A stretch of DNA of 27,385 nt, taken from the IMG/VR virus record IMGVR_UViG_3300028025_002453, positions 1 to 27,385 of that record; one strand, given 5' to 3'. Positions 3,470 to 18,853 of the stretch are shown piece by piece (position 1 is the stretch's first letter; every line of letters begins with the position of its first letter). The notes under the pieces were generated by a model that was given only the letters and a program-made list of their open reading frames with translations, made no database searches and had not been told where the DNA came from. The position numbers were made by a program, and so were the translations under genes. Source of the stretch: a virus.

Positions 3470-5233
3470 TTATTTTGAATGTAGTTTAGAATTACCCAAA
3501 TTCTTACGAGCACCTGATTGTGCTCCAGCTGGGCGACCACGACCACGCTTTTCAGCTGCTGGTTTCATTGGTTTTTTATCATCATAATCATCTGCGCCTT
3601 CTGGATCAGTATAACTTGCTCCATAAGAACGACCTTTAACTTGAGTAACTCCACCTGGACCTGGAGTGTACTCTAACATAAACTCTTTATATGAAACTTT
3701 GTTAGAGATTAAATTACCTTCCTCATCGAAAGATTCTTTAACTGGTTTCTTCACCTTCTTAACTGCTTCCCATTTTTCTTCATGGGCAGCATCTCCAGCT
3801 GCATTTACTTTAACTTCTACTGACTTAGCCTCATTCATTTCAGAGTGCATGTAGTCAGCTGCAGTTTGGATATAGTCAGTGGCAAGAGTAATCTTAGATT
3901 GAACCCATTCTGGCATGTCAGTGTCTGGCTTTAGAATTTCTTTGATCATTTCAGCACATCTTGTTAGAGTTGCCAATTGATTCAAAGCCATGTCACCTTC
4001 GTAACCATACTCTTCTTCGTCTTTTTCTTCTTTAATTTTATTAGTTGGCATACCATTGATTGGTTTGCGTGATGCTTTTAATGCTTTATTCTCTGGAGTA
4101 CCCTTGATGTATTTACGATCTGGTACTGGAGCAACTGGTGCTTGCTCATTGGTCTTTGCCATCTTTTGCATTGCTTGTCCAGCCATGTTGGCAACTTTAC
4201 CTGCTGGATCTTTCTTAGCGTCAGCTTTGGTAGTTTTCTTCCAATCACCTTCGTATTTGAAAGAAACTAATTTACCTGCTTTATCTTTTGTAGTAGTCAT
4301 TTGTGCTTCATTACGCAAAGCACGACCAATTGCTTTATTGTGTGCTTGAGCAGTCTTGTGTTCTGGCTCTGCATCTGGAACTGGGTTGTTAAGTTTATAA
4401 CGAGCACCACGAGATGCGTCCATCATATTCTTCATTGTTTTATTTTGTTTTGCTTGATCAGACTTTTCATCTAACCCTTCAACTTCTTCACCCATGTTTA
4501 GAGTTCTTCTTTTATTAGCGATCAAAGCACCTCTGGCTTTACCAGACTTCATTAGGTTAGTTAATTTTTGACGAGCAACTGACATATGACTAACTGCATC
4601 TAAGGCATTGAGTTTAGTCTTCATTCTACGAATTTCGTCTAGTTCTTCGACTGATTCAGACATAGTTGAATGTTTAACTGTAGTAGAGTTACCACCATTC
4701 GCACCTTGGAAATGAACATCATCACCAGATCGTTTAGCAGTCCAGTGTTTTCCATCTTCAGTTTTAAACTTATGTTCTTGCTGGTCTTTCAGCTTAGCAA
4801 TGGCTTCATGGTGTTCTGGATGTAAAGGAATAGAGAAATCAGAACCATGATGAACAGTCTTCATAGTACCCCAAGAGTACTTTTTAGTATTAACAGTTGC
4901 TTCGTCCAACTCTACCTCTTCTTTAACTTCGTTATCTAGAACAGACTTTGCTCTATGTAAAGAACTGTAAGTATCGATATGAGTAGTCTTACCTTTATGT
5001 TCTCTATGAATAGAATAATCGGTAGGAGAGTCTTGCATAATGTGATACTTGGCACCATCAGCACCTTTTCTTGTATGCACCAACTTAGTAGCACCAGTAG
5101 TTGCTTCTTCTAACTCTTCAGTTTCTTCTTTACGAAGTAACTTAAAGTCATGAGCATCGACTTTACCATTCTTGTTCTTGTCGATCTTATGTTGGTTACC
5201 CTTCAACGCTTCCATAAATGATTTGTATTCCAT
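3470..5233 (-). CDS. Probable head-internal modular protein with EF-hand, LDE sites and AT-hook
   Basis: 587 aa, very rich in Lys, Glu and Ala. Modules in order: an N-terminal MEYKSFMEAL like the T4 capsid-targeting peptide; an EF-hand loop at residues 18-29 (D-K-N-K-N-G-K-V-D-A-H-D); acidic linkers each containing L-x-E before a small or charged residue, at residues 41-44 (LEEA), 109-112 (LDEA), 198-201 (LDEI) and 254-257 (LDEK); a helical module at 413-466 (EWVQSKITLATDYI) that recurs in marine phage proteins; a second targeting-like sequence SYKEFMLEY at 514-522; and an AT-hook-like KRGRGRPAG at 562-570. I infer a DNA-associated internal head protein that the prohead protease may cut at the L-x-E sites. 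It starts at ATG 5233 behind GGGGAA, directly after the Dps-like gene. No enzyme motif is visible; function remains inference. Confidence 0.6.
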   Translation of the reverse strand: MEYKSFMEALKGNQHKIDKNKNGKVDAHDFKLLRKEETEELEEATTGATKLVHTRKGADGAKYHIMQDSPTDYSIHREHKGKTTHIDTYSSLHRAKSVLDNEVKEEVELDEATVNTKKYSWGTMKTVHHGSDFSIPLHPEHHEAIAKLKDQQEHKFKTEDGKHWTAKRSGDDVHFQGANGGNSTTVKHSTMSESVEELDEIRRMKTKLNALDAVSHMSVARQKLTNLMKSGKARGALIANKRRTLNMGEEVEGLDEKSDQAKQNKTMKNMMDASRGARYKLNNPVPDAEPEHKTAQAHNKAIGRALRNEAQMTTTKDKAGKLVSFKYEGDWKKTTKADAKKDPAGKVANMAGQAMQKMAKTNEQAPVAPVPDRKYIKGTPENKALKASRKPINGMPTNKIKEEKDEEEYGYEGDMALNQLATLTRCAEMIKEILKPDTDMPEWVQSKITLATDYIQTAADYMHSEMNEAKSVEVKVNAAGDAAHEEKWEAVKKVKKPVKESFDEEGNLISNKVSYKEFMLEYTPGPGGVTQVKGRSYGASYTDPEGADDYDDKKPMKPAAEKRGRGRPAGAQSGARKNLGNSKLHSK

Positions 5234-5235
5234 TC

Positions 5236-5682
5236 TTATTCCCCAGTAGTTTTTAGGATGGATCTTAGCATCCAGCCATGTTTCTTATGTGCATCTAGTC
5301 TAGAAGCCACAAAATCAGCAAACCCTTGCTCTTTTGCAACAGTTAGTAGATCGAATAACTTATTTAGGCGAACGATGCTTTCGTTGTTCGCTGCAAGTAA
5401 ATCAGCCAGCATTGTCTCTGGAGTTTGTCCAACATTACCTGCATCGATAGACTTATGAACATAAATCTCGTCTAGGTTTCTTGGAGCATACTCTTGTAGA
5501 GCACGGATTTCTTCTGCAAATGTATCGATCGCACCATAGAGTTCCTCGTATAGATTACCGAAGAATTCGTGTAGTTGAGGGAAATCTTTACCTTCCACAT
5601 TCCAGTGATAAGAGTGTGCCTTAAAATACATTAAAAATGTATTGCTTAGACAGACCCTTGCTTCTTGTACAGTATCGTCCAT
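5236..5682 (-). CDS. dps-like: Dps-like ferritin (DNA-protecting miniferritin)
   Basis: 148 aa, close to the length of bacterial Dps. The family signature HWNVEGKDFPQLHEFF...YEELYGAIDTFAEEIR is present, and all four classic ferroxidase positions are kept with the right spacing: His26, His38, Asp53 and Glu57. The C-terminal helix has HKKHGWMLRS, as in Dps. Known Dps proteins form 12-subunit shells that oxidise and store iron and often coat DNA, limiting Fenton damage. The gene lies 2 bases upstream of the EF-hand/AT-hook protein and directly follows a probable head-internal gene, so it may be made with virion proteins and could enter the head, though it lacks the targeting-like N-terminus. Alternatively it protects phage DNA in the infected cell. 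No long basic tail is seen, so DNA binding is uncertain; the ferritin fold is not. Confidence 0.88.
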   Translation of the reverse strand: MDDTVQEARVCLSNTFLMYFKAHSYHWNVEGKDFPQLHEFFGNLYEELYGAIDTFAEEIRALQEYAPRNLDEIYVHKSIDAGNVGQTPETMLADLLAANNESIVRLNKLFDLLTVAKEQGFADFVASRLDAHKKHGWMLRSILKTTGE

Positions 5683-6066
5683 TTAACAGTTCCACTTTCT
5701 AAGTGCGAGTGCTTTACGACTTGGCTCGCCATTTGGTTTCTTCATTGGACCTTCCATACCACCCATTCGTGCACAGAAAGATTTTCTACGATTTGCTGCT
5801 TTGCTTCCAGCTTTTAATTCAGATGGAGGAGTGGTAACTGGTGCTTGTAAATTAGCACCTTTAGCATTGTATGCGTCACGACCTTTTTGAGTCAGACCAC
5901 CAGTAGATGACTTGTGTCCCTTAGCATCAACTGCTGCTTCATCAAGTTCTGTTTCTTCTTTGACGCAAGATCCAGGAGCACATGGCTTAGTTCCAGGCTT
6001 ACGCTTGTAACCTTTCCAGCAGTCACAAGACTCGGATAGGTATTCTGTGAATGATTTAAAATACAC
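5683..6066 (-). CDS. Cys-rich small head-associated protein (DUF6321-like)
   Basis: 127 aa from a GTG start at 6066 with AGGAAG nine bases upstream; it overlaps the previous gene by 11 bases. The N-terminus MYFKSFTEYLSES matches the targeting-like peptide of its neighbours. Next comes a cysteine-rich segment (CDCWKGYKRKPGTKPC, then GSC), then an ETELDEA site at residues 38-44. The C-terminal domain runs from GGLTQKGRDAYN through RRKSFCARMGGMEGP to ALRKWNC. I recognise it as a conserved small domain of T4-like phages, which I recall as DUF6321; function unknown. The strongly basic domain and the N-terminal peptide fit a packaged DNA-binding or internal head protein. Its shared LDEA motif ties it to the 3470-5233 and 6056-8197 proteins. 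Confidence 0.65.
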   Translation of the reverse strand: MYFKSFTEYLSESCDCWKGYKRKPGTKPCAPGSCVKEETELDEAAVDAKGHKSSTGGLTQKGRDAYNAKGANLQAPVTTPPSELKAGSKAANRRKSFCARMGGMEGPMKKPNGEPSRKALALRKWNC

Positions 6067-8197
6067 TTGGAGTACTTCCTTTAGTAACTTTGCCGTGAGA
6101 CATTCTAGCTTTTTCTACTGTACGAACACGAGAAACTAATCTTTGAGCAACACGAGAAATAATATCTTTTCTCTTTGCCATTGTTTTTTCAATTCGTTCT
6201 TTTTCGCCAACAGAAACTTTAGCATAATCACGACCACGAAGCATGCGTTTCTTCATTAGTTTAATCGCCAATCTTCTTGCTCGTTTATTAATAGTTGCTG
6301 GGTTTGAAAATCGTTTCAACGCAATCTTAGTTGAACGACCTCGTTTTGCAGAAGTCTTACGGAGACGGATCTTACCTTTCATTCTTTCTACACGAGAAAG
6401 AACTTCCATTAGATCATATTTGGCTTCTTCTTCTAGTGGTGGAATTTCTTCACCATCGTCATCATAAACTAAAATAAGTTCGTCTTCTTCGTAGAGATCT
6501 TCGATGTCTTCGTCTGTGACAGAGTTTATCATTTCTTCAATTTCTTCTTCAGTAAAATCTTCTTTGAAGAATGGATCTTTTGACATTGTTGTATCAGTAC
6601 TAATTCCTGGACGCTGTTCACCGCATTCACATGGATTCATACCACATTCTGGACAGACTTCTTTTTTCTTAGCTTCATCTAATTCTTCGGATAGACCACT
6701 TGGTTTATCTCTAAAGTGTTTCCAATCAGATGCATCTGTAGATACGATATGCTTGTAAGGAACTTCATGACCAGACATAGTCTTAACATGAGTGCCAGTT
6801 TTATTTGCTACATTACTAAGGTGATGTTGATTACCTTTTTTGTAGATAACAGTTCCACCATGACTAGAGACATCATCTTCTCCATAACCTTCTTTCATTT
6901 GGCCATGTTTCTTTAGATCGTTGTCAAATTGTTTGCTGGTAGCTTTGTTAATTCCAGAGAAACGCTTGTCCCCCTTTTTATAATTACCAGACGCATCAGC
7001 TGCTTTAGCAGATGCAGCAGAAGCTGTCTTATATCTTGCTAATAGATCAGTTGATAGTTCATTGATGTTTTCTTTCTCTTGTGTATGTTTAGTAGCAAGA
7101 GTTTCTTTTTCTTTAGCATGTTTAAGAGCCAACTGCGCTTTCATTCTTTCTTTAGCGGGATCAGTTTCTTCTGTTTGATATTTAACTTTCATACGACGAA
7201 GATGGTGTGAACCTTTTTCTTCACCTCCAGGAACTAATGTATGACCAACTTCACTCGGGGTGTATGTGTTTAACTTTTCATTATCGGTCTCATCAGTAGG
7301 CGGAGACTCTTTCATATTGTAATTATAGAATGTCAAGAAACCTTTAGTCTTACCCTGTGGCTTAGTGATGTCTTGTTTAGCACCAGTATCCGAAGTAGAT
7401 GGCTCTAACTTATCTGTGCCGTTTGGTTGTATGACTGCTTCTTTCATTTCTTTTTCTTCCGTAGGTTTAACATCTTGGATCCATTTAGAAACAAGATTAC
7501 CAGATTGTTCTTTTAACAGTAAATGATTCGAACCACGCTTAACAATTTTATATAATTCACCATTTGATTCTACAAGGTCACCTTCATTAAAGATCTCTCC
7601 ACGAAAATATTGCTCACGGAGTTTATCTTTAACCATCATCAATTGTTCTTTGACTGGATCTAATCCCAATCCATGACGAACATCGTTCATTAGGCGACGA
7701 CCATCAAGTTCACGAATGTTGCTCGGCAACTTCTTTTTAAATTCTTCGTACAATCCTTTTACAGCCAACTGCTTCATTTTAGCATAGTTAGCATCAGGAT
7801 TCTTTTCCGTGATTGGAATAATTTGAATGGAAGTATTTTCTTTAACAAGTTTCTTTAGTTTATCGACTTGTTCGCTTCCAGTAACTATTACAATCTTCTT
7901 GTATTTCTTGCCTAGTTCTTCAAGCAGATTATTAATCTTAGACTCGTTCACAGACTTGAACTTGGTCTTAGGGAACATTAACTTTAAGTATTGTTCCTTC
8001 TTTTCTTCTTGAATTAGGCTATCTTTAGTGGATGCGTAGATGACATGGTCAGTATTCTTTTGCTCTGACAGTCTAGTGACAGTTTTTACCAACAACTCAT
8101 GTGCTGTGGTTGGAGGATCAAAATCTCCAAATGCACAGACTAATGTAGTCGAGGGTAATTCTTTGATTAGTTGTCTATAATCTTTCATACGATCCAT
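6056..8197 (-). CDS. Multidomain protein: N-terminal nucleotidyltransferase fold, C-terminal basic domain
   Basis: 713 aa. Residues 15-180 look like a cytidylyltransferase/NMNAT-type nucleotidyltransferase: the strand and loop AFGDFDPPTTAHELL (22-36) correspond to G-x-F-x-P-x-x-x-G-H, with the usual H-x-G-H reduced to T-A-H. Residues 200-245 resemble a small beta barrel. Residues 378-420 (INELSTDLLARYK, then KRFSGINKATSK) are a module that I recall recurring in phage virion proteins. At 505-509 is ELDEA, followed by a CPECGMNPCEC cluster (515-525) that may bind zinc. A very acidic stretch (547-592) precedes a strongly basic helical region (603-697). M4 begins MKDYRQLIKEL, close to the T4 internal-protein leader. 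I infer a packaged, possibly protease-cut protein; whether the N-terminal domain is catalytic is open because the signature is degenerate. Confidence 0.6.
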   Translation of the reverse strand: MDRMKDYRQLIKELPSTTLVCAFGDFDPPTTAHELLVKTVTRLSEQKNTDHVIYASTKDSLIQEEKKEQYLKLMFPKTKFKSVNESKINNLLEELGKKYKKIVIVTGSEQVDKLKKLVKENTSIQIIPITEKNPDANYAKMKQLAVKGLYEEFKKKLPSNIRELDGRRLMNDVRHGLGLDPVKEQLMMVKDKLREQYFRGEIFNEGDLVESNGELYKIVKRGSNHLLLKEQSGNLVSKWIQDVKPTEEKEMKEAVIQPNGTDKLEPSTSDTGAKQDITKPQGKTKGFLTFYNYNMKESPPTDETDNEKLNTYTPSEVGHTLVPGGEEKGSHHLRRMKVKYQTEETDPAKERMKAQLALKHAKEKETLATKHTQEKENINELSTDLLARYKTASAASAKAADASGNYKKGDKRFSGINKATSKQFDNDLKKHGQMKEGYGEDDVSSHGGTVIYKKGNQHHLSNVANKTGTHVKTMSGHEVPYKHIVSTDASDWKHFRDKPSGLSEELDEAKKKEVCPECGMNPCECGEQRPGISTDTTMSKDPFFKEDFTEEEIEEMINSVTDEDIEDLYEEDELILVYDDDGEEIPPLEEEAKYDLMEVLSRVERMKGKIRLRKTSAKRGRSTKIALKRFSNPATINKRARRLAIKLMKKRMLRGRDYAKVSVGEKERIEKTMAKRKDIISRVAQRLVSRVRTVEKARMSHGKVTKGSTPSVF

Positions 8198-8234
8198 CTA
8201 TAAAGTAGTACATATTATTTAGGAGTTTGTATCC

Positions 8235-8471
8235 TTACATTACAGCTAGTAATCCTTGTGCTGCAGCAACGATCCAACGACAAGCGATCTCGTCTGATGC
8301 AAGTTCCTGTTGTGCTCTAATGTCAGCGATCTCTTGTAGAAGGAATCCGTATTCTTCTGAGGTTAATTGTCCTTGAGCATAGTTCTCGTGGATCACTAGC
8401 ATTTCGTTTGCTAATGCTGCTGCTGGACCATTAAGTCCAGCCTGTTCTCTTAGTTCGTTGAGGATACTCAT
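8235..8471 (-). CDS. Small conserved phage protein, unknown function
   Basis: 78 aa, all-helical and acidic (NELREQAGL, ANEMLVIHENYAQGQLTSEEY), with a hydrophobic C-terminal stretch (CRWIVAAAQGLLAVM) that could be a short membrane or packing helix. Its ATG overlaps the stop of the upstream lipoprotein gene in ATGA (8468-8471), so it is translationally coupled to it. The segment GQLTSEEYGFLLQEI resembles small conserved proteins in other phages. One guess is a partner of the lipoprotein at the envelope; nothing in the sequence proves this. Confidence 0.55.
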   Translation of the reverse strand: MSILNELREQAGLNGPAAALANEMLVIHENYAQGQLTSEEYGFLLQEIADIRAQQELASDEIACRWIVAAAQGLLAVM

Positions 8472-8818
8472 TTTCTACCTTTCCATGCGTCGGCAACTAC
8501 ATCTATACGAGTTTTGTTTAATTTTAAAACAGATTCGCAAAAAGGAATGCTCTTAGATTCTCTGGCTTTTCTAATTGCTTCTTCTAATTTAGCTATAGCA
8601 TCTGCTTGTGGATCATCACGAAGTGAAGTATAAACCCTTAATTTCTCTATATTCATTTCTGCGCTCAACCAAGAGAAGTCTTTATTTTCGCAAGATAAAC
8701 TATGAACTGCAATTTTGGTGTCAACCAGATACCCAAACATAACTGGATCATGCGGTTGTGGTAAAATTAATGCGCAACCTGATAGTGCTACTGCTAAAAT
8801 TAAAATTAGTCTTTTCAT
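8468..8818 (-). CDS. Phage-encoded lipoprotein, unknown function
   Basis: 116 aa. It has a clear lipoprotein signal peptide: MKR, a hydrophobic stretch, and the lipobox ALSGC with the lipid-bearing cysteine at residue 15. The mature protein is about 100 residues, mostly charged and helical (AKLEEAIRKARESKS), with two further cysteines (Cys43 and Cys94) that could pair in the periplasm. It overlaps both neighbours by 4 bases in ATGA junctions. It is not next to an i-spanin and lacks the proline-rich look of Rz1, so I do not call it a spanin. Surface lipoproteins of phages sometimes block superinfection; that is one possibility, not shown here. Confidence 0.65.
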   Translation of the reverse strand: MKRLILILAVALSGCALILPQPHDPVMFGYLVDTKIAVHSLSCENKDFSWLSAEMNIEKLRVYTSLRDDPQADAIAKLEEAIRKARESKSIPFCESVLKLNKTRIDVVADAWKGRK

Positions 8819-10611
8819 TTCATAGCCTTTCTGAGATCGTTATACAGAGCATCTTTATGTTCTGGCTTCATCTGGCTTGATAGATGAGAATGAAATTCTT
8901 CTTTCTTACCTGCTGACGCTAATCCTCTTAGTTTAGTACCAGAGACACCTTCAACACCTTTAGCATTTTCATCTCGTTTACCAGCATTCTCAAATGTAAT
9001 GTCTTTAAAGTTATACTCTCCATGAGCACCCTTAACTCCATTATACTTCTTGAGTAAGTCAGCCATTGGTTTGCGATCTTCACCACCAGCAAAGTGCAGA
9101 TGAGTCACACCTTGTTTGTGAAGTGCTGCTGCTTGATGTAGGAGAGTTGGTTTATCTTTATCAGCTACTGTTACATTAGTTCCAGGGAATGCATTCTTAG
9201 CATGTTTTAGTTTTTGTTCAGGAGAAAGAGGATTCTTACCTTTCTTCTTATCAGCTGCAGTAGTATCTTGAGAACCAGATAGAACTAGAGTATGATCACC
9301 ACCAAATTTCTTGGCAGTGTCATGCATATGTTGAACAAGTTTCTCATGTCCAGCAGTTGGAGGATTCATACGACCAAATGCCATTGTGTGGTGGACTTCA
9401 TCTGTCTTTGGTGCACCACGAGACTTCAATAGATTCTGACGAGCAAACTCTGAACGATTGACCAACTTGGTTGGTTCTGTTACACCATTGTGAGTATGAT
9501 TATAAACAAAACCTTCTGGCTTGGATGCAACACCACCGATAGAATGTTCATATCCACCTTCGTTTGATTCAAGACTATTGACCAATTCATTCTTTGCATT
9601 GGCAAGATGACCATGCATCTTTAGTAGATTGTCGTAGTGTTCTTTGTTCTTATCAATATGTGCCAACTGAGCACCAGCATCATTCATAATCTCTTGCTTC
9701 TTGGCAGGAGTTTTAATCTTTTCGAACTTCTTCTTCAATTGTCCTGACACATGGTCTTTGAATCCATCGCTGGAAGGAGTTTCACCAGTACGAACTGTTT
9801 GATTGATATAGGTTGCTAAGTGTCCTGATTCACCGCTATGCTCTGGATGAATTGCTTTATACATCTTGGCACCATGAGTCTCGTGAATAGTCTTGGCTTT
9901 GGATAGTTCACCAAGAACTTTTTGTTGAGATTGTTCAGAGTATTTTGCACCTCCAGCATCGTAACTGGCAGTGTGGTGATAGATGTCTGGATGAGAACCG
10001 AAATCACTTTCAGAAACATTACCAGTTGCACGCATGTTGCTTAGGTTAGTTCCTTCGTATTTGGTATGAGTAACTAAACCAAATTTAGATTTGTTAATTG
10101 ATGTAGCTTTGTCACCCTTTGCACCATAAGTGATAGTGTTTGGTGTGAAAGAAGTTTTGTCTCCTTCTTTCTTAAGATCAGGTTTAGTGAACATCACATC
10201 ACCTTGGAATACACCTTTCTTTGGTGCAATCTTTGGTGCATGTTCTAATGCTGCTTTAAGTTTTTCTACAAGACCTGGAGCATGTCCATGATTCTTCTGA
10301 ACATCTTCAGGTGTATAATTTAGTTTTGGGTTTTTATTGAAGGCAGACTTTGATGCAACAAAGAATTTACCATTTTCTGGGTGGTGTCCATAAACCAAAG
10401 ATGGCGAACCATCGTACTTCATAGTCAGTTTGTTGGAGTTCATACCTTGTTTGGTATGGAAGTGTGCACCATGTAGAGCATTATACGCATGATTAAATCC
10501 GTCTGCTCCATGGAACAGTGGACGATCCTCAGCGTGAGTAATGTGTTTAAGTTTTGCACCCTCTTCATTCGGTGCACCCTCAGTTAAAAAGTCTCTAAAT
10601 CCTAGTATCAT
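8815..10611 (-). CDS. Fusion of ligase-like (KxDG) domain and NMNAT-like nucleotidyltransferase
   Basis: 598 aa, two domains. N-terminal (about 25-395), DUF6267-like: KYDG at 65-68 looks like motif I of the covalent nucleotidyltransferases (DNA/RNA ligases, capping enzymes). GVFQGDVMF (133-141), EGFVYN (366-371) and TKLVNR (381-386) sit where motifs III, IV and V might be. C-terminal (about 405-598): GRMNPPTAGHEKL (413-425) matches the G-x-F/M-N-P-P-T-x-G-H signature of NMNAT-type enzymes, and VSGTKLR (556-562) matches their I-S-x-T-x-x-R element. This half keeps both motifs and is probably active. The N-terminus MILGFRDFLTEG resembles a capsid-targeting leader. Likely roles are nucleic-acid end repair/ligation or NAD metabolism; a packaged enzyme is inferred. 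A full-consensus promoter ends 6 bases before its ATG, leaving almost no leader and no Shine-Dalgarno. Confidence 0.7.
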   Translation of the reverse strand: MILGFRDFLTEGAPNEEGAKLKHITHAEDRPLFHGADGFNHAYNALHGAHFHTKQGMNSNKLTMKYDGSPSLVYGHHPENGKFFVASKSAFNKNPKLNYTPEDVQKNHGHAPGLVEKLKAALEHAPKIAPKKGVFQGDVMFTKPDLKKEGDKTSFTPNTITYGAKGDKATSINKSKFGLVTHTKYEGTNLSNMRATGNVSESDFGSHPDIYHHTASYDAGGAKYSEQSQQKVLGELSKAKTIHETHGAKMYKAIHPEHSGESGHLATYINQTVRTGETPSSDGFKDHVSGQLKKKFEKIKTPAKKQEIMNDAGAQLAHIDKNKEHYDNLLKMHGHLANAKNELVNSLESNEGGYEHSIGGVASKPEGFVYNHTHNGVTEPTKLVNRSEFARQNLLKSRGAPKTDEVHHTMAFGRMNPPTAGHEKLVQHMHDTAKKFGGDHTLVLSGSQDTTAADKKKGKNPLSPEQKLKHAKNAFPGTNVTVADKDKPTLLHQAAALHKQGVTHLHFAGGEDRKPMADLLKKYNGVKGAHGEYNFKDITFENAGKRDENAKGVEGVSGTKLRGLASAGKKEEFHSHLSSQMKPEHKDALYNDLRKAMK

Positions 10612-10617
10612 ATTACT

Positions 10618-10646
10618 ATTATACCCTAAGTTGCAATAATTGTCAA
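10618..10646 (-). promoter_or_regulatory. Perfect sigma70 consensus promoter (TTGACA-N17-TATAAT)
   Basis: The -35 TTGACA is at 10641-10646 and the -10 TATAAT at 10618-10623, with a spacer of exactly 17 bases and AGGG before the -10. It fills the 61-base intergenic gap before the gene starting at 10611. The expected start point, 6-7 bases past the -10, falls on or next to the A of the ATG, so the transcript would be leaderless or nearly so. It is the strongest promoter by sequence in a non-coding position in this window. Confidence 0.85.
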
Positions 10647-10672
10647 GCGATAACCCTACAGAGTTGAGGGGA

Positions 10673-11914
10673 TTATTTCAGTCCAAAAGTACCTACTAGA
10701 CTCTTATGCGGTCCAGAAGAACTCTTAACAGCGAATGTAGCTACACGAACTGGCTTTTTGGTTATTGGATGTTTACCTTTAATAACAACTGTGCTTCCTT
10801 GATGTTCTGTATAAAGATCTGTAGCGTTTGCCAAATGTTCATCGGCAATGCTATGGGATGCTTTAATAACTGGCTCAGAAGAACCATCAGATTTAACTTT
10901 ACTATGAGCAACTGAATGCGGAATATGAGTTGGAGCAGAAACATGCTGACGAATAATGTCACGCAACTCTGAATCAGATTTAGTAGAAAGTCCTGCATGA
11001 AATTGTTTAGCAACAGCAGTCTTTGCATCTCTAGAAGAAGACTCTGCGGCATTGACACGAGCATTAGAAGTGTGTAGATATTCTGCTTGTTCTTTTGGTT
11101 TTAAACTATCATGACCATTAATAAATGCACCTAGATGTTCATGCATAATTTTATTTTTCTTACTTAAAGATTTACCTGCTGCAGTAATACCCTGTAGTTT
11201 GGCATGTTCTATTCTTGCCTTATCAATACCCATCTTATCAATTTTATATTGAATGTTCTTTTGATCAGCAGAACCATTATAGCCAAGTGCTTCCATATGT
11301 TTATGGTGAGCATCAGTCAATGATTTCAAACTACCCTTTTCAATACCAGCAGTCTTTTCCAAAGAGTCAAGACCTGGATTACGATAGTTAGGTTCATTGG
11401 AACCATACTTAGCTGATACGCCATGGTATCCAACTGTCTTACCTTCTTTATTTTTAAGAGTAAGAATCAAATCAGCATTTGAATTTGGATCTGAAACACC
11501 ATTACCATTTGCATCTTTTACTGTCTTAAAATGGTCTCCAGGACTGTTTGGTTTGTCTGCGTTAGATGTCCAGTGAACATCACCAATATGAGCATGGTCA
11601 CCAATATGTCCTTGCTCTTGAAGATGTTTCTTAAATGCTTCAGCTGTATTCTTAGCATGGGAATCAATTTCATCGTATGCAGCTTTACCAATTTTCTTCA
11701 TTAAGCGATCGTGAACTTGAACTGGTGTTCCAGCATGCTCTTCGTTTTCAGATTCAGAACGATGATGTAATGGAAGTTGTTTGTCTGAGTGAAGATGTTT
11801 TGCCAGAAGCAACTCGTGGAGTTTACCTTTGTCGTCAGACTCTAGGTCTTGTGATAATGCTTTCTCTAGCAGTATATCTGTTTCTTCTTTTAAGAATGAT
11901 TTAAAATTTAACAT
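10673..11914 (-). CDS. Probable head-internal protein, possible PD-(D/E)XK-like fold
   Basis: 413 aa, His-, Lys- and Ser-rich. The N-terminus MLNFKSFLKEE fits the F-x-x-F-[LI]-x-E pattern of T4 capsid-targeting leaders. In the middle, Glu34 (in LHELLLAKHL), Asp148 (in NADLILTL) and S-A-K at 167-169 (in GYHGVSAKYG) follow the order alpha1-Glu, Asp, x-x-Lys of PD-(D/E)XK nucleases, with Ser in place of the usual Glu. The segment after this (NYRNPGLDSLEK) looks like a conserved phage motif. C-terminal residues 370-413 are beta-like (VVIKGKHPITKKPVRVATF). Possible role: a packaged nuclease or an inactive relative that binds DNA. It is followed by the promoter gap at 10612-10672, which also holds a weak CCCT/AGGG inverted repeat without a T-run. 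Function is low-confidence; the gene is certain. Confidence 0.5.
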   Translation of the reverse strand: MLNFKSFLKEETDILLEKALSQDLESDDKGKLHELLLAKHLHSDKQLPLHHRSESENEEHAGTPVQVHDRLMKKIGKAAYDEIDSHAKNTAEAFKKHLQEQGHIGDHAHIGDVHWTSNADKPNSPGDHFKTVKDANGNGVSDPNSNADLILTLKNKEGKTVGYHGVSAKYGSNEPNYRNPGLDSLEKTAGIEKGSLKSLTDAHHKHMEALGYNGSADQKNIQYKIDKMGIDKARIEHAKLQGITAAGKSLSKKNKIMHEHLGAFINGHDSLKPKEQAEYLHTSNARVNAAESSSRDAKTAVAKQFHAGLSTKSDSELRDIIRQHVSAPTHIPHSVAHSKVKSDGSSEPVIKASHSIADEHLANATDLYTEHQGSTVVIKGKHPITKKPVRVATFAVKSSSGPHKSLVGTFGLK

Positions 11915-11917
11915 AAC

Positions 11918-12643
11918 TTACCTTAGAAATGGATTCTTCTTTTGTGTTCCTGGTTTAAGAGAGTACTTACTGTTAGGCATTTTAGTAATTTTTATTTCTG
12001 CCTGAATCTCGTAAAAATCAGATCTTGTGGCGACTCGAACTTTGAAGTCTCCCATACCTGCAAGAATTGGAATTCGATCAGCACCTAACTTAAATGGATC
12101 AAACTTTGATATTAGATAAAAGTCATCGGCAGCTTGCATGTAATAAGCTGGGGCTTTTTTACCAAGAGTGTAATGCTCTGTGACTAATTTACCAAGATTA
12201 TAGTTTTCTTGATTCGCAATGTATCTATTAACATTGGGTTGATCAAAATACTTTTTCATAACCTCCAAAGGAACTGCTCCGTCTTCTTTGAGACCACCTT
12301 TGGTTGTTGGTAATTTTATTTTGTTTATAGGAATGCCAGAGAACAAAGCAATTTTTTTGACGAAGTCTTTAGAAAAAGAAGACTTGTTAAGAATTTCAAC
12401 TGCAGCATGTGCTGCTGGAGTAGTATAAGTGGTTTTCCAATTACCATTCGAATAAAATACACGAGGATTAGAAAGATTATCGGTATGATTCATCTTCACT
12501 TCCATCCATGAAGTAGTTGTGCCATATGTTACTTTAACATCAGCATAGCCTGTGTCTCCTGGAGGTCTTGTTGCTTTAACCCCTGGAATTTTATCGATGT
12601 ATCTGGCCACATCTTGCTCGTACTTGTCAGATAATGCACTCAT
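11918..12643 (-). CDS. PD-(D/E)XK nuclease-like protein
   Basis: 241 aa. Residues 35-50 carry D-x12-E-V-K (Asp35 in GYADVKVTYG, Glu48 and Lys50 in WMEVKMNH), the central signature of the PD-(D/E)XK nuclease superfamily, after an N-terminal helix with Glu9 (DKYEQDVARYIDK). The rest is less conserved. The C-terminus is basic (KPGTQKKNPFLR). It is followed 3 bases later by the 413-aa probable head protein and preceded by a short gap with TAGTAAATA, a possible T4-late-like promoter. It might be a DNA-processing endonuclease used in packaging, recombination or host-DNA breakdown. No DNA-binding domain is visible, and a structural, non-catalytic role cannot be excluded. Confidence 0.6.
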   Translation of the reverse strand: MSALSDKYEQDVARYIDKIPGVKATRPPGDTGYADVKVTYGTTTSWMEVKMNHTDNLSNPRVFYSNGNWKTTYTTPAAHAAVEILNKSSFSKDFVKKIALFSGIPINKIKLPTTKGGLKEDGAVPLEVMKKYFDQPNVNRYIANQENYNLGKLVTEHYTLGKKAPAYYMQAADDFYLISKFDPFKLGADRIPILAGMGDFKVRVATRSDFYEIQAEIKITKMPNSKYSLKPGTQKKNPFLR

Positions 12644-13420: not shown

Positions 13421-14029
13421 TTACATCTTGAAATTACCTTCCAAGAATGCGAGTACCTTTCCCTGCTCCTCCAAGTTAGTATTGCTAAACTCAGTAATAT
13501 AAGGCATCAGTTCAAAGTTTGATAGTAGATTACTATATTTAGTTTCTCTACCTCTTAGGAATTGTTCGGACTGGTCTGAGCCACGATCTTTATATCGTTG
13601 TTCTAGGACTTCCTTAGTTGTTTTAAGGTAAACCACCTGCAGTTCTGTATTAGGTAGTCCCATGGCGAACTCTAAGAAAGACTGATTAAAGATTCGATCT
13701 CCCTCGAATAGGATGTTACAGTTGTGTGAAGCGATCCAGTCTTGTAGTGGAGGTTGGACTGCCATAGAAAGTCGATCCGTTCCAGCGAAGACTTGACCCT
13801 CTTCATACTTACCGAGAATGTATAGATCTCGCTCTATATTGTAGCTGGCATTTACCAGCTTAACTGGAGCAACATCAATCCACTCTTTTCCTTCCATAAA
13901 CTTACGGAATAGAGTGGTCTTACCAGTTCCAGGTTGTCCACCCACAGCAATCAGTTTACGAGTTTTCATAGGATTAGTCACTTTCTTAATATTAATAGAG
14001 TCTGCAAGACCAAAGTTATCTTTAAGCAT
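13421..14029 (-). CDS. P-loop kinase, candidate hydroxymethyl-pyrimidine DNA kinase
   Basis: 202 aa. A clear Walker A, GGQPGTGKTT, lies at residues 30-39 after a hydrophobic strand (KLIAV). Further elements fit an NMP-kinase-like fold: TDRLSMAVQ (84-92), a Walker-B-like strand CNILFEGDR (104-112) and an arginine-rich lid region (RYKDRGSDQSEQFLRGR, 145-161). In phages that hypermodify thymine, a P-loop enzyme phosphorylates 5-hydroxymethyl-dU in DNA. The position at the end of a TET/JBP-containing cluster, two genes after a protein resembling the helical partner of that kinase, makes that the leading guess. It overlaps its upstream neighbour by 8 bases. It could instead be a polynucleotide or nucleotide kinase. 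A promoter-like site lies 117 bases upstream. Confidence 0.68.
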   Translation of the reverse strand: MLKDNFGLADSINIKKVTNPMKTRKLIAVGGQPGTGKTTLFRKFMEGKEWIDVAPVKLVNASYNIERDLYILGKYEEGQVFAGTDRLSMAVQPPLQDWIASHNCNILFEGDRIFNQSFLEFAMGLPNTELQVVYLKTTKEVLEQRYKDRGSDQSEQFLRGRETKYSNLLSNFELMPYITEFSNTNLEEQGKVLAFLEGNFKM

Positions 14030-16816: not shown

Positions 16817-17492
16817 ATTGTAAGTCCACCGCATCTTCAATGACTTCTTTTTCAATTGTCATTGCGAGTTGGTCATCAAATGTAATGTAATGGTTCATCA
16901 AAGTATTAATCGGAAATCCTGGAACGAATGCTCGTTTTGGAACATCAGCAGTAGAAGTAATTATACACCCATTTGAGATAGAAGTCAAATATAATGGACG
17001 CTTACCATTGCGATAGAATCTAATTCGTTTATCAGTATGCAACTCAATTACTGCAAGACTAGAATGTTTCCAATGTTGTAACGGAGAATAGTCTTCCAAT
17101 GAACGAAGCAACAACTCAGTATCGTTTTTACCTTCGCAGGTATAACCATGGAGTAATTCCCAGTCTTCATAAAGTTCTTGAGTAATAACTCCATTGTGGA
17201 CTACTGAAACATTGTCATTGGCAATTGGTTGATTGAATTCTAAGTCACTTGTGCTGTAACGACAGTGACCAACTAAGTACAAGTTGCCGTCTTCATTTAA
17301 ATATGATTCAAAATCAAATGGAAACTTATCTGCAGAGACTGGTAGCTTTTGCGTAACGATAGAATTGGCTTTAACATAAGACAAACCAGTAGCATGCATT
17401 CCTCGAATCTTAGACTCAAGGAACACACGATGTAACATATCAAAATCCTGCAGGGTTGGACTATGCAGGATTGCGCCAATGACTGAACACAT
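16803..17492 (-). CDS. Stand-alone class II glutamine amidotransferase (Ntn hydrolase)
   Basis: 229 aa. Cys2 follows the initiator Met and would become the N-terminal nucleophile. The remaining active-site pattern of class II glutaminase domains (PurF, GlmS, AsnB) is present: RGMHATG (30-36), GHCRYST (75-81, the glutamine-binding Arg), QPI...VVHNG (88-101, oxyanion Asn/Gly) and NDTELLLR (123-130). There is no synthase domain, so the ammonia or aminated product must be passed to a partner. Its ATG shares a base with the stop of the TET/JBP-like gene (TAATG), making translational coupling near certain. In this setting it probably supplies nitrogen for a DNA base modification. It could also be a glutamine-dependent step in nucleotide synthesis, but no such partner is nearby. 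Confidence 0.85.
   Translation of the reverse strand: MCSVIGAILHSPTLQDFDMLHRVFLESKIRGMHATGLSYVKANSIVTQKLPVSADKFPFDFESYLNEDGNLYLVGHCRYSTSDLEFNQPIANDNVSVVHNGVITQELYEDWELLHGYTCEGKNDTELLLRSLEDYSPLQHWKHSSLAVIELHTDKRIRFYRNGKRPLYLTSISNGCIITSTADVPKRAFVPGFPINTLMNHYITFDDQLAMTIEKEVIEDAVDLQYELC
16960..16988 (-). promoter_or_regulatory. Sigma70-type promoter (TTGACT-N17-TATAAT)
   Basis: The -35 TTGACT is at 16983-16988 and the -10 TATAAT at 16960-16965, with a 17-base spacer. Only one base differs from full consensus. It lies inside the amidotransferase gene and would allow the GNAT-like gene (ATG 16816) and those after it to be expressed without the dioxygenase and amidotransferase. Confidence 0.62.
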
Positions 17493-18853
17493 TAGAAGAA
17501 TCCTTCAAGTGAATTTGCCTTTTGTGATTCTGGATGATACTTCATTAGTGTATCATGACCAAGTTTTGCTTCAAGGTATTCATACCATTCATCAGACTCC
17601 CACATAGAAGAACTAACACCATTCCAAAGATGTCGTTGAGAACCATCTTCGTATTTCTGGTCTGGGTGTTCTTTGTTAAGTCTTCGTTGTTCAACAAAGT
17701 CATAACGACAATCTTCATATTGTTTTGAACCCAACTCAGCCATCTTCTCACGGAAGTAAACAACCAATGAGATTCGCTCTGCTTCTTCATCAAGCAATTC
17801 AATCTGAGTATTACCATGCATCACTTCATGATTATTAATCAGTAGCAAATCTCCAGGTCTTGGATTAACAGCAACACGATACTCTGGTGCTACAAGATAA
17901 CATCCTTTGTAGTTACCATTATTACTCAATGTCAATAGATTAGATAGACCAGAAGTTAAGTCACCAGCGTCAAAGTGACACGCAGTTCTGAAAGACTTAT
18001 TCACAGTAACAGTGGTGAATGGAGTTCCTGGAACTAAGAATGCAGGATCTAGTTTCTTTGCTGCTTCCATTTGATTATTATATCTCCATGGCAACAAGTC
18101 TTTGAAACCTTGCGCAAGTTGCTGTAGGAATGGATATGCCATGGCAAACTTTGCTGGTTCACGAGCAGTGTAAGATGTTGCACGACCATAAGGAATGCGA
18201 GGATAACGATCGAACCATCCAGCAATACCAGACATAACACCATTGGCATAGGTAGTTGCGCACACATACGCTTTCTCTACTCGTCTTGCTTCGATAACCA
18301 TTTCAGATGCATCTAGTTTACGAACTTTCTCAACCCATTCGTTGAATACAAATCCGTCTTTCTTGACTGCTTGAATACCCCAAACATTATTTCGTGTAGA
18401 TGGTTTATCAGTCTTACCTTCGTGCTTGGCTTTAATAACATCAATTGGATCTCCATCCAACGATGCTTTTGGATCCAAGAAGTATTCAATAATTTCTGAT
18501 TCGTATTCAGTGACCCATTCACGATTACCCAACTTCTCTGCTCTTGGACCTGCAGCCATACCTCTGTTCTGAGTTTCAGTTGCTGCTTCACGGAGACCAA
18601 TATACGCTTGGTCTTGTTGCTCTTTACTGAAGTAGTTCTTACGAAACTTTAAAACAATTCGTCTTTCATCCATCCCAGTATCGCACGATGAACATTCTTG
18701 GTCACAATCTGCTTGAGTCGCTAGATCGCAGTTGGCTGGCATATAGACATCACAATCCTCTTCAATGAGGAAATCATAATGCGACTCATCTGGGAATTGT
18801 CCCAACATATGAGTCATATCAAGTTTCTCTTTTGCTACAATTATCTTTACCAT
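17492..18853 (-). CDS. TET/JBP-type 2OG-Fe(II) DNA dioxygenase
   Basis: 453 aa. The double-stranded beta-helix core lies at about 275-370. Iron ligands are His293 and Asp295 (in ACHFDAGDL) and His346 (in EVMHGN); Arg360 (in RISLVVYF) should bind 2-oxoglutarate. The surrounding sequence, TVTVNKSFRTACHFD, GLSNLLTL and VAVNPRPGDLLLINNHEVMH, has the style of phage TET/JBP proteins, which oxidise the methyl group of thymine or 5-methylcytosine in DNA. The N-terminus has a cysteine cluster (Cys34, 42, 50, 54, 57) that could bind zinc and contact DNA. The last residues, NSLEGFF, resemble the C-terminal motif of the window's DNA polymerase and may dock on the sliding clamp. A strong AGGAG precedes the ATG. 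It heads the modification gene run, directly after the helicase gene. No methyltransferase is in the window, so T versus 5mC is undecided. Confidence 0.8.
   Translation of the reverse strand: MVKIIVAKEKLDMTHMLGQFPDESHYDFLIEEDCDVYMPANCDLATQADCDQECSSCDTGMDERRIVLKFRKNYFSKEQQDQAYIGLREAATETQNRGMAAGPRAEKLGNREWVTEYESEIIEYFLDPKASLDGDPIDVIKAKHEGKTDKPSTRNNVWGIQAVKKDGFVFNEWVEKVRKLDASEMVIEARRVEKAYVCATTYANGVMSGIAGWFDRYPRIPYGRATSYTAREPAKFAMAYPFLQQLAQGFKDLLPWRYNNQMEAAKKLDPAFLVPGTPFTTVTVNKSFRTACHFDAGDLTSGLSNLLTLSNNGNYKGCYLVAPEYRVAVNPRPGDLLLINNHEVMHGNTQIELLDEEAERISLVVYFREKMAELGSKQYEDCRYDFVEQRRLNKEHPDQKYEDGSQRHLWNGVSSSMWESDEWYEYLEAKLGHDTLMKYHPESQKANSLEGFF

Follow-up and report, generated by a model that had tools for sequence, protein, structure and literature searches.

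The window, by which we mean the whole 27,385-nucleotide stretch analysed here (IMG/VR record IMGVR_UViG_3300028025_002453), represents 27.4 kb of the genome of a T4-like phage. Its minus strand, to which all coordinates below refer, encodes a DNA polymerase, UvsX and a DnaB/gp41-type helicase, as named from their sequences. A Tet/JBP-type 2OG-Fe oxygenase (17492–18853; Pfam E 9e-27) is, on sequence grounds, a possible DNA base modifier, and the product of 11918–12643 resembles PD-(D/E)XK nucleases by eye (PPGDTGYADVKV...WMEVK), with no Pfam match. The gene under study, 8815–10611, is a 598-residue open reading frame that begins with an ATG at 10611 and has no internal stops; PADLOC returned no match for its product.

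The protein is composed of three parts: an N-terminal tag (residues 1–11, MILGFRDFLTE; 10579–10611) that is similar to the T4 capsid-targeting sequence MKTYQEFIAE, a DUF6267 domain with a ligase-like core (residues 22–396; 9424–10548; Pfam PF19782, E = 5.9e-89) and a nucleotidylyltransferase domain of the PPAT/NMNAT class (residues 405–598; 8818–9399). In PHROGs, the N-terminal half falls in a family annotated as unknown and residues 394–598 match 'cytidyltransferase' (2e-44); the Pfam CTP_transf_like match to the C-terminal half is weak (13 bits, below the cut-off). A preliminary description had picked out KYDG, EGFV, KLVNR, GRMNPPTAGH and VSGTKLR within this one reading frame, and re-reading the frame and the motif positions bears this out. 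Further features are a YQGD acidic motif (D138) in register with the others, an N-terminal HxxHxED motif and a helical insert.

To describe conservation in DUF6267, 301 loci were reduced to 64 full-length representatives of less than 80% identity to each other, which with the window protein make 65; a further 27 sequences from genome contigs gave an alignment of 92. Identical in all 92 are K65, D67, G68, D138, P157-N158-T159, Y162, H182, Y185, N270, K340, E366, G367, V369 and K382. The motifs of covalent nucleotidyltransferases are recognizable among them in ligase order: motif I, K65-Y66-D67-G68 (10408–10419), with the predicted nucleotidyl-lysine; a motif III-like Q136-G-D138 (10198–10206), in which the acidic residue is Asp and not Glu; motif IV, E366-G-F-V369 (9505–9516); and a motif V-like K382-L-V-N-R386 (9454–9468; R386 in 91 of 92). 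The identity of the key residues across the whole set argues that the motifs did not arise by chance, and the loss of conservation at K65, D67 and G68, named beforehand as the outcome that would speak against a ligase, is not seen. TKLVNR, proposed earlier as motif V, holds up for its invariant lysine but is canonical only by half, as the second lysine of KxK is replaced by Val (V384) in 90 of the 92. For this reason we use the term 'ligase-like' and do not file DUF6267 as a proven member of the superfamily. The E366–K382 spacing of 16 is close to the spacing of 14 between E312 and K326 in Naegleria Rnl (NgrRnl; residue numbers taken from mutant names in structure entry titles). Between motifs III and IV lies the helical insert (residues 226–347; 9571–9936), delimited from the secondary structure of the models and the alignment and containing the invariant N270 and K340.

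AlphaFold modelled the whole protein from an 82-row alignment with a pLDDT of 92, most of residues 1–13 and 398–402 being disordered; DUF6267 alone gave a pLDDT of 94 and a pTM of 0.91. K65 lies at the end of a strand, D138 within a strand, E366 just before a strand and K382 within a strand, which is where motifs I, III, IV and V should lie. Whether a ligase-like fold surrounds K65 had also been set out in advance as a test, and structural re-alignment (VIA) of the DUF6267 model to solved structures places RNA or tRNA ligases at all of ranks 1–22, led by NgrRnl (Z 9.0, r.m.s.d. 3.7, 188 aligned residues) and including T4 Rnl2 (8.1), Trl1 (8.1), TbREL1 (7.5) and T4 Rnl1 (7.4). Below these, the top 50 consists mostly of RNA or DNA ligases, with archaeal and human DNA ligases at Z 6–7. 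After motif V, the model continues with a helix (386–397) and a linker leading to residue 405; no β-barrel follows, and the C-terminal OB-fold with motif VI that marks ATP-dependent DNA ligases and mRNA capping enzymes is thus absent from this part of the model. On these models, computation shows residues 22–396 to have a predicted fold of the covalent-nucleotidyltransferase (polynucleotide-ligase) type, bearing invariant KxDG, acidic, EGxV and K motifs.

The VIA Z of up to 9.0 has to be read together with a Foldseek search of the same model against the PDB that found nothing significant, the best match being REL1 at E = 0.24. Sequence comparisons gave a similar result. No match was obtained with phmmer against PDB sequences; profile searches of the PDB yielded nothing meaningful for DUF6267 and only borderline PPAT/NMNAT matches for the C-terminal half. 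Comparison by hhalign with the T4 Rnl2 and Rnl1 families was not significant, and the Rnl2–Rnl1 control failed too. Nor was significance reached against a broader RNA_ligase set, in which 10 of 60 and 6 of 60 column-shuffled controls attained the real score. The family HMM PF09414 (Rnl2) found no match, and PF09511 (Rnl1) matched 2 of 57 DUF6267 members, at E 0.1 only; a local hhalign alignment with T4 RNA ligase 1 brings motifs IV and V into register. Because Foldseek and profile comparisons are not significant, the proposed homology rests on fold and motifs, and at that level the ligase reading of the modelled domain is well supported. Membership of the Rnl1 or Rnl2 family is not demonstrated. 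A literature search for DUF6267 returned no paper, and we came across no publication that assigns it to the ligases; among the papers listed on cyanophage RNA ligases and on phage RNA ligase–NMNAT fusions, none deals with such a fusion.

The C-terminal domain is more readily placed. Residues 405–598 align with PPAT, NMNAT and NadD structures, with a VIA Z of up to 14.7 (153 residues, r.m.s.d. 2.9, to 3k9w). The first catalytic motif ([TH]xGH) lies in G413-RMNPPTAG-H422 (9346–9375) and the second in V556-SGTKL-R562 (8926–8946); among 210 distinct partner-domain sequences, T419, G421 and H422 are 96–99% conserved and the residues of S-x-[ST]-K-x-R about 93%. With its modelled fold and both motifs intact, this half is a nucleotidylyltransferase of the PPAT/NMNAT class. 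The earlier assignment of a complete NMNAT-type domain was therefore right as to the superfamily and the two motifs but too specific as to the substrate: the best structural matches are to PPAT (CoaD), not NMNAT, and the two enzymes lie within 2 Z units of each other, so that the fold does not distinguish their substrates. PHROGs and alignment identify a second nucleotidylyltransferase paralogue at 6056–8197, kept as a separate gene beside the fusion; its sequence reads TxAH at the site of TxGH, the second catalytic motif is degenerate, and it is therefore probably inactive.

DUF6267 and the nucleotidylyltransferase are linked in evolution as a pair. Among the 56 representatives with enough flanking sequence to judge the partner, 54 have both, 18 as a fusion and 36 with the partner encoded just downstream. 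Separate neighbouring genes are thus the commonest state, as in Syn9 (gp183/gp184) and S-SM1 (189/190). On the tree, fusion requires three changes, compared with at least 15 for random labels, suggesting about three fusion events; the fusion in resequenced S-PM2 sits in a part of the tree other than the window clade. The two representatives without a partner, L076 (Vibrio phage 2.275.O) and L079 (S-SSM7), are untagged and keep all ligase motifs, from which the ligase-type domain probably has a job independent of its partner. About 500 deposited phage genomes contain one or other of the pair, as do very many viral contigs, and the matches among genome contigs come mostly from marine MAGs; a plasmid search for DUF6267 found none. 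One 188-kb contig (L395) belongs to the assembly of a Nonlabens xiamenensis isolate. As that assembly also contains a T4-type prohead protease, the contig probably represents a co-sequenced or carried T4-like phage.

The N terminus of the window protein, MILGFRDFLTE followed by GA, is matched in T4 by internal proteins II and III (ipII and ipIII), both of which begin MKTYQEFIAE followed by A. The T4 capsid-targeting sequence suffices for packaging foreign proteins (PMC3012670). A tag of this kind extends the N terminus ahead of the HxxHxED motif in at least 53 of the 65 DUF6267 representatives, and it is also found on split partner genes. In DLP_6, a loose version of the pattern matched 7 of 1,099 candidate starts; alternative starts of the DUF6267 gene account for two of the 7. 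In the window, a block at 3470–11914 contains five genes with tag-like starts, and the replication genes have none. Besides the fusion, these are 3470–5233 (MEYKSFMEAL), 5683–6066 ((V)YFKSFTEYLSES), the paralogue at 6056–8197 (MKDYRQLIKE) and the gene immediately upstream at 10673–11914 (MLNFKSFLKEE), which neighbourhood comparison finds kept beside DUF6267 in the window clade. Their N-terminal sequences suggest a set of co-packaged head proteins. An untagged Dps/ferritin-like protein (5236–5682; Pfam Ferritin, E 1e-20) is encoded inside the same block.

Published virion proteomes agree with the distribution of the tag. The cyanophage partner proteins S-SM1_190, S-SZBM1_140, S-SCSM1_91 and S-CREM2_154 have been reported in virions (PMC3037559, PMC9146016, PMC9602691, PMC10665884), some such detections being possible contamination according to their authors. 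All four are tagged (MKKFSAFLNEAE, MRFRQFIIEA, MKSFLQFLKEAA and MKNFSSFLTEAD, respectively). The untagged proteins that could be checked were two: the DUF6267 protein S-SZBM1_141 is absent from the published virion list, and the S-PM2 fusion matches a gene product reported as undetected in S-PM2 virions. Cyanophage DUF6267 proteins start directly at the HxxHxED motif, so packaging of the family is not universal, and we rejected head packaging as a general property of DUF6267; our literature search gave no instance of DUF6267 itself being detected in virions. A T4-type S77 prohead protease is encoded in all 12 related phages. The tag, the virion data on tagged partners and the protease in relatives together make packaging of the window protein likely, and by the same analogy head delivery is likely in the tagged clades. 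The proposal that the protein is packaged in the head therefore has support from the tag and from the proteomes of tagged partners, and for the phage of the window itself it is an inference. Cleavage by the prohead protease is predicted after E11. If the tag packs it into the particle as expected, the protein could be active as soon as the phage enters the host cell.

A P-loop kinase of the Ploopntkinase3/Zeta-toxin type (13421–14029) is conserved in the window clade, where about 20 relatives have it 2–4 kb upstream of the DUF6267 gene, and in HTVC008M a Zeta-toxin/AAA_33-type kinase lies between the DUF6267 and nucleotidylyltransferase genes. These kinases would fit 5'-end healing, which is at most a weak suggestion. 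No phosphatase, 2H or KptA partner in RNA repair was identified beside DUF6267.

The biological task of the fusion is a matter for hypothesis, as are the earlier suggestions that it repairs ends or RNA and that it uses or makes NAD/ATP-type adenylates. We give about an even chance to the view that it is a head-delivered enzyme of RNA-ligase type with an attached nucleotidylyltransferase module. The prohead protease would remove the tag and the enzyme would be ejected together with the DNA. K65 would take AMP from ATP (or NAD+) and pass it to a 5'-phosphate end, which would then be sealed to a 3'-OH. Its likeliest job would be to mend host RNA during the first minutes of infection, such as tRNA that an anti-phage nuclease has cut. 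What the attached domain makes, a dinucleotide such as NAD+ or a CoA-like product, would serve this early phase too. The structural ranking and the missing OB-fold lead us to prefer RNA-type ligation. A tighter coupling, which we consider improbable, is a virion-delivered cofactor cycle in which the nucleotidylyltransferase rebuilds a dinucleotide (for example NAD+ from NMN and ATP) that serves the ligase-type domain as AMP donor. Such a cycle would allow an injected particle protein to seal nucleic-acid breaks despite an attack on host NAD+ or ATP.

The same covalent chemistry might act on DNA instead of RNA, sealing restriction nicks or ends of the incoming phage genome. This is possible but unlikely. 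The gene lies beside UvsX and the gp41 helicase, DNA ligases also match the fold, and searches of 12 related phages for DNA_ligase_A_M and RNA_ligase genes found neither in 8 of them, so that DUF6267 could be the sole ligase there (a PF09511 search of the genomes gave no match, but neither did the control genomes, so that this absence carries no information). Against this, RNA ligases outscore DNA ligases, the OB-fold and motif VI are missing, and a separate DNA ligase is encoded by the other four relatives, among them the nearest complete one; in that phage at least, DUF6267 is not simply the replicative ligase.

The remaining alternatives shift the emphasis away from sealing. The main job could be resupply of NAD+ (or CoA), a virion-borne nucleotidylyltransferase countering host NAD+ depletion while DUF6267 uses or senses its product. 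In the cyanophages checked, tag and virion reports concern the nucleotidylyltransferase only, and phage NAD+ synthesis as counter-defence has been reviewed (PMC9503650). We nevertheless hold this to be rather unlikely, given that the closest structures are PPAT and not NMNAT, that the protein carries no fused NadV or Nudix domain, and that DLP_6 has separate NAMPT and ADP-ribose pyrophosphatase genes elsewhere. Quite unlikely, in our estimate, is a repurposed ligase-type domain that nucleotidylates a protein, a small molecule or an RNA 5' end, as in capping, and never seals. The lost motif V lysine, the E-to-D change in motif III and the large insert with invariant residues of its own would suit such a role, but the other motif residues are completely conserved and the nearest folds are those of ligases. 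That the resemblance consists of coincidental motif-like strings on an unrelated fold seems very improbable: the non-significant Foldseek and profile searches would allow it, but the four motif sites stand in ligase order and belong to the small number of positions invariant across the 92 sequences, and an independent comparison of folds gives ligases at all top 22 ranks.

If the ligase reading is correct, DUF6267 is an unrecognized branch of the ligase superfamily in abundant marine and freshwater viruses, in a family very common among marine T4-like viruses and hitherto unexplained. The tag analysis, compared here with published virion proteomes, provides a simple sequence rule for head-loaded, injected proteins.

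Among known enzymes, DUF6267 is most like the group of T4 RNA ligase 2, Naegleria Rnl and the RNA-editing ligases (PF09414), with fold Z values of 7.5–9, the motifs K-x-[HD]-G, G-[ED], EG[YF]V and K-x-x-N in the same order and no OB-fold after motif V. It differs from this group in lacking an HMM match, in motif V (KxV compared with KxK), in the helical insert of about 120 residues and in its fusion to a nucleotidylyltransferase with a head-targeting tag. T4 RNA ligase 1 (PF09511) shares KxDG in motif I, EGYV in motif IV and the fold (Z 7.4), whereas sequence similarity is not significant and the flanking domains differ. The C-terminal half is like PPAT (CoaD) and NMNAT (NadM/NadR) in fold (Z 13–14.7) and in its TxGH and SxTKxR motifs, and is homologous to the cyanophage 'cytidylyltransferase' T4-GC190 (phrog_3041). 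Unlike NadM and NadR, which are fused to Nudix or P-loop kinase domains, it is joined to DUF6267; overviews of phage NAD+ and RNA-repair systems, in the passages covered, report fusions of HIGH-type nucleotidyltransferases with Nudix or P-loop kinase domains and mention none with a ligase. Finally, the protein shares with T4 IPII and IPIII an N-terminal M-x-x-[FY]-x-x-F-[LI]-x-E tag followed by a small residue, and an S77 protease in relatives. In T4 the tagged cargo is a small internal protein, whereas here, where packaging is deduced from sequence, it would be a large two-domain enzyme.
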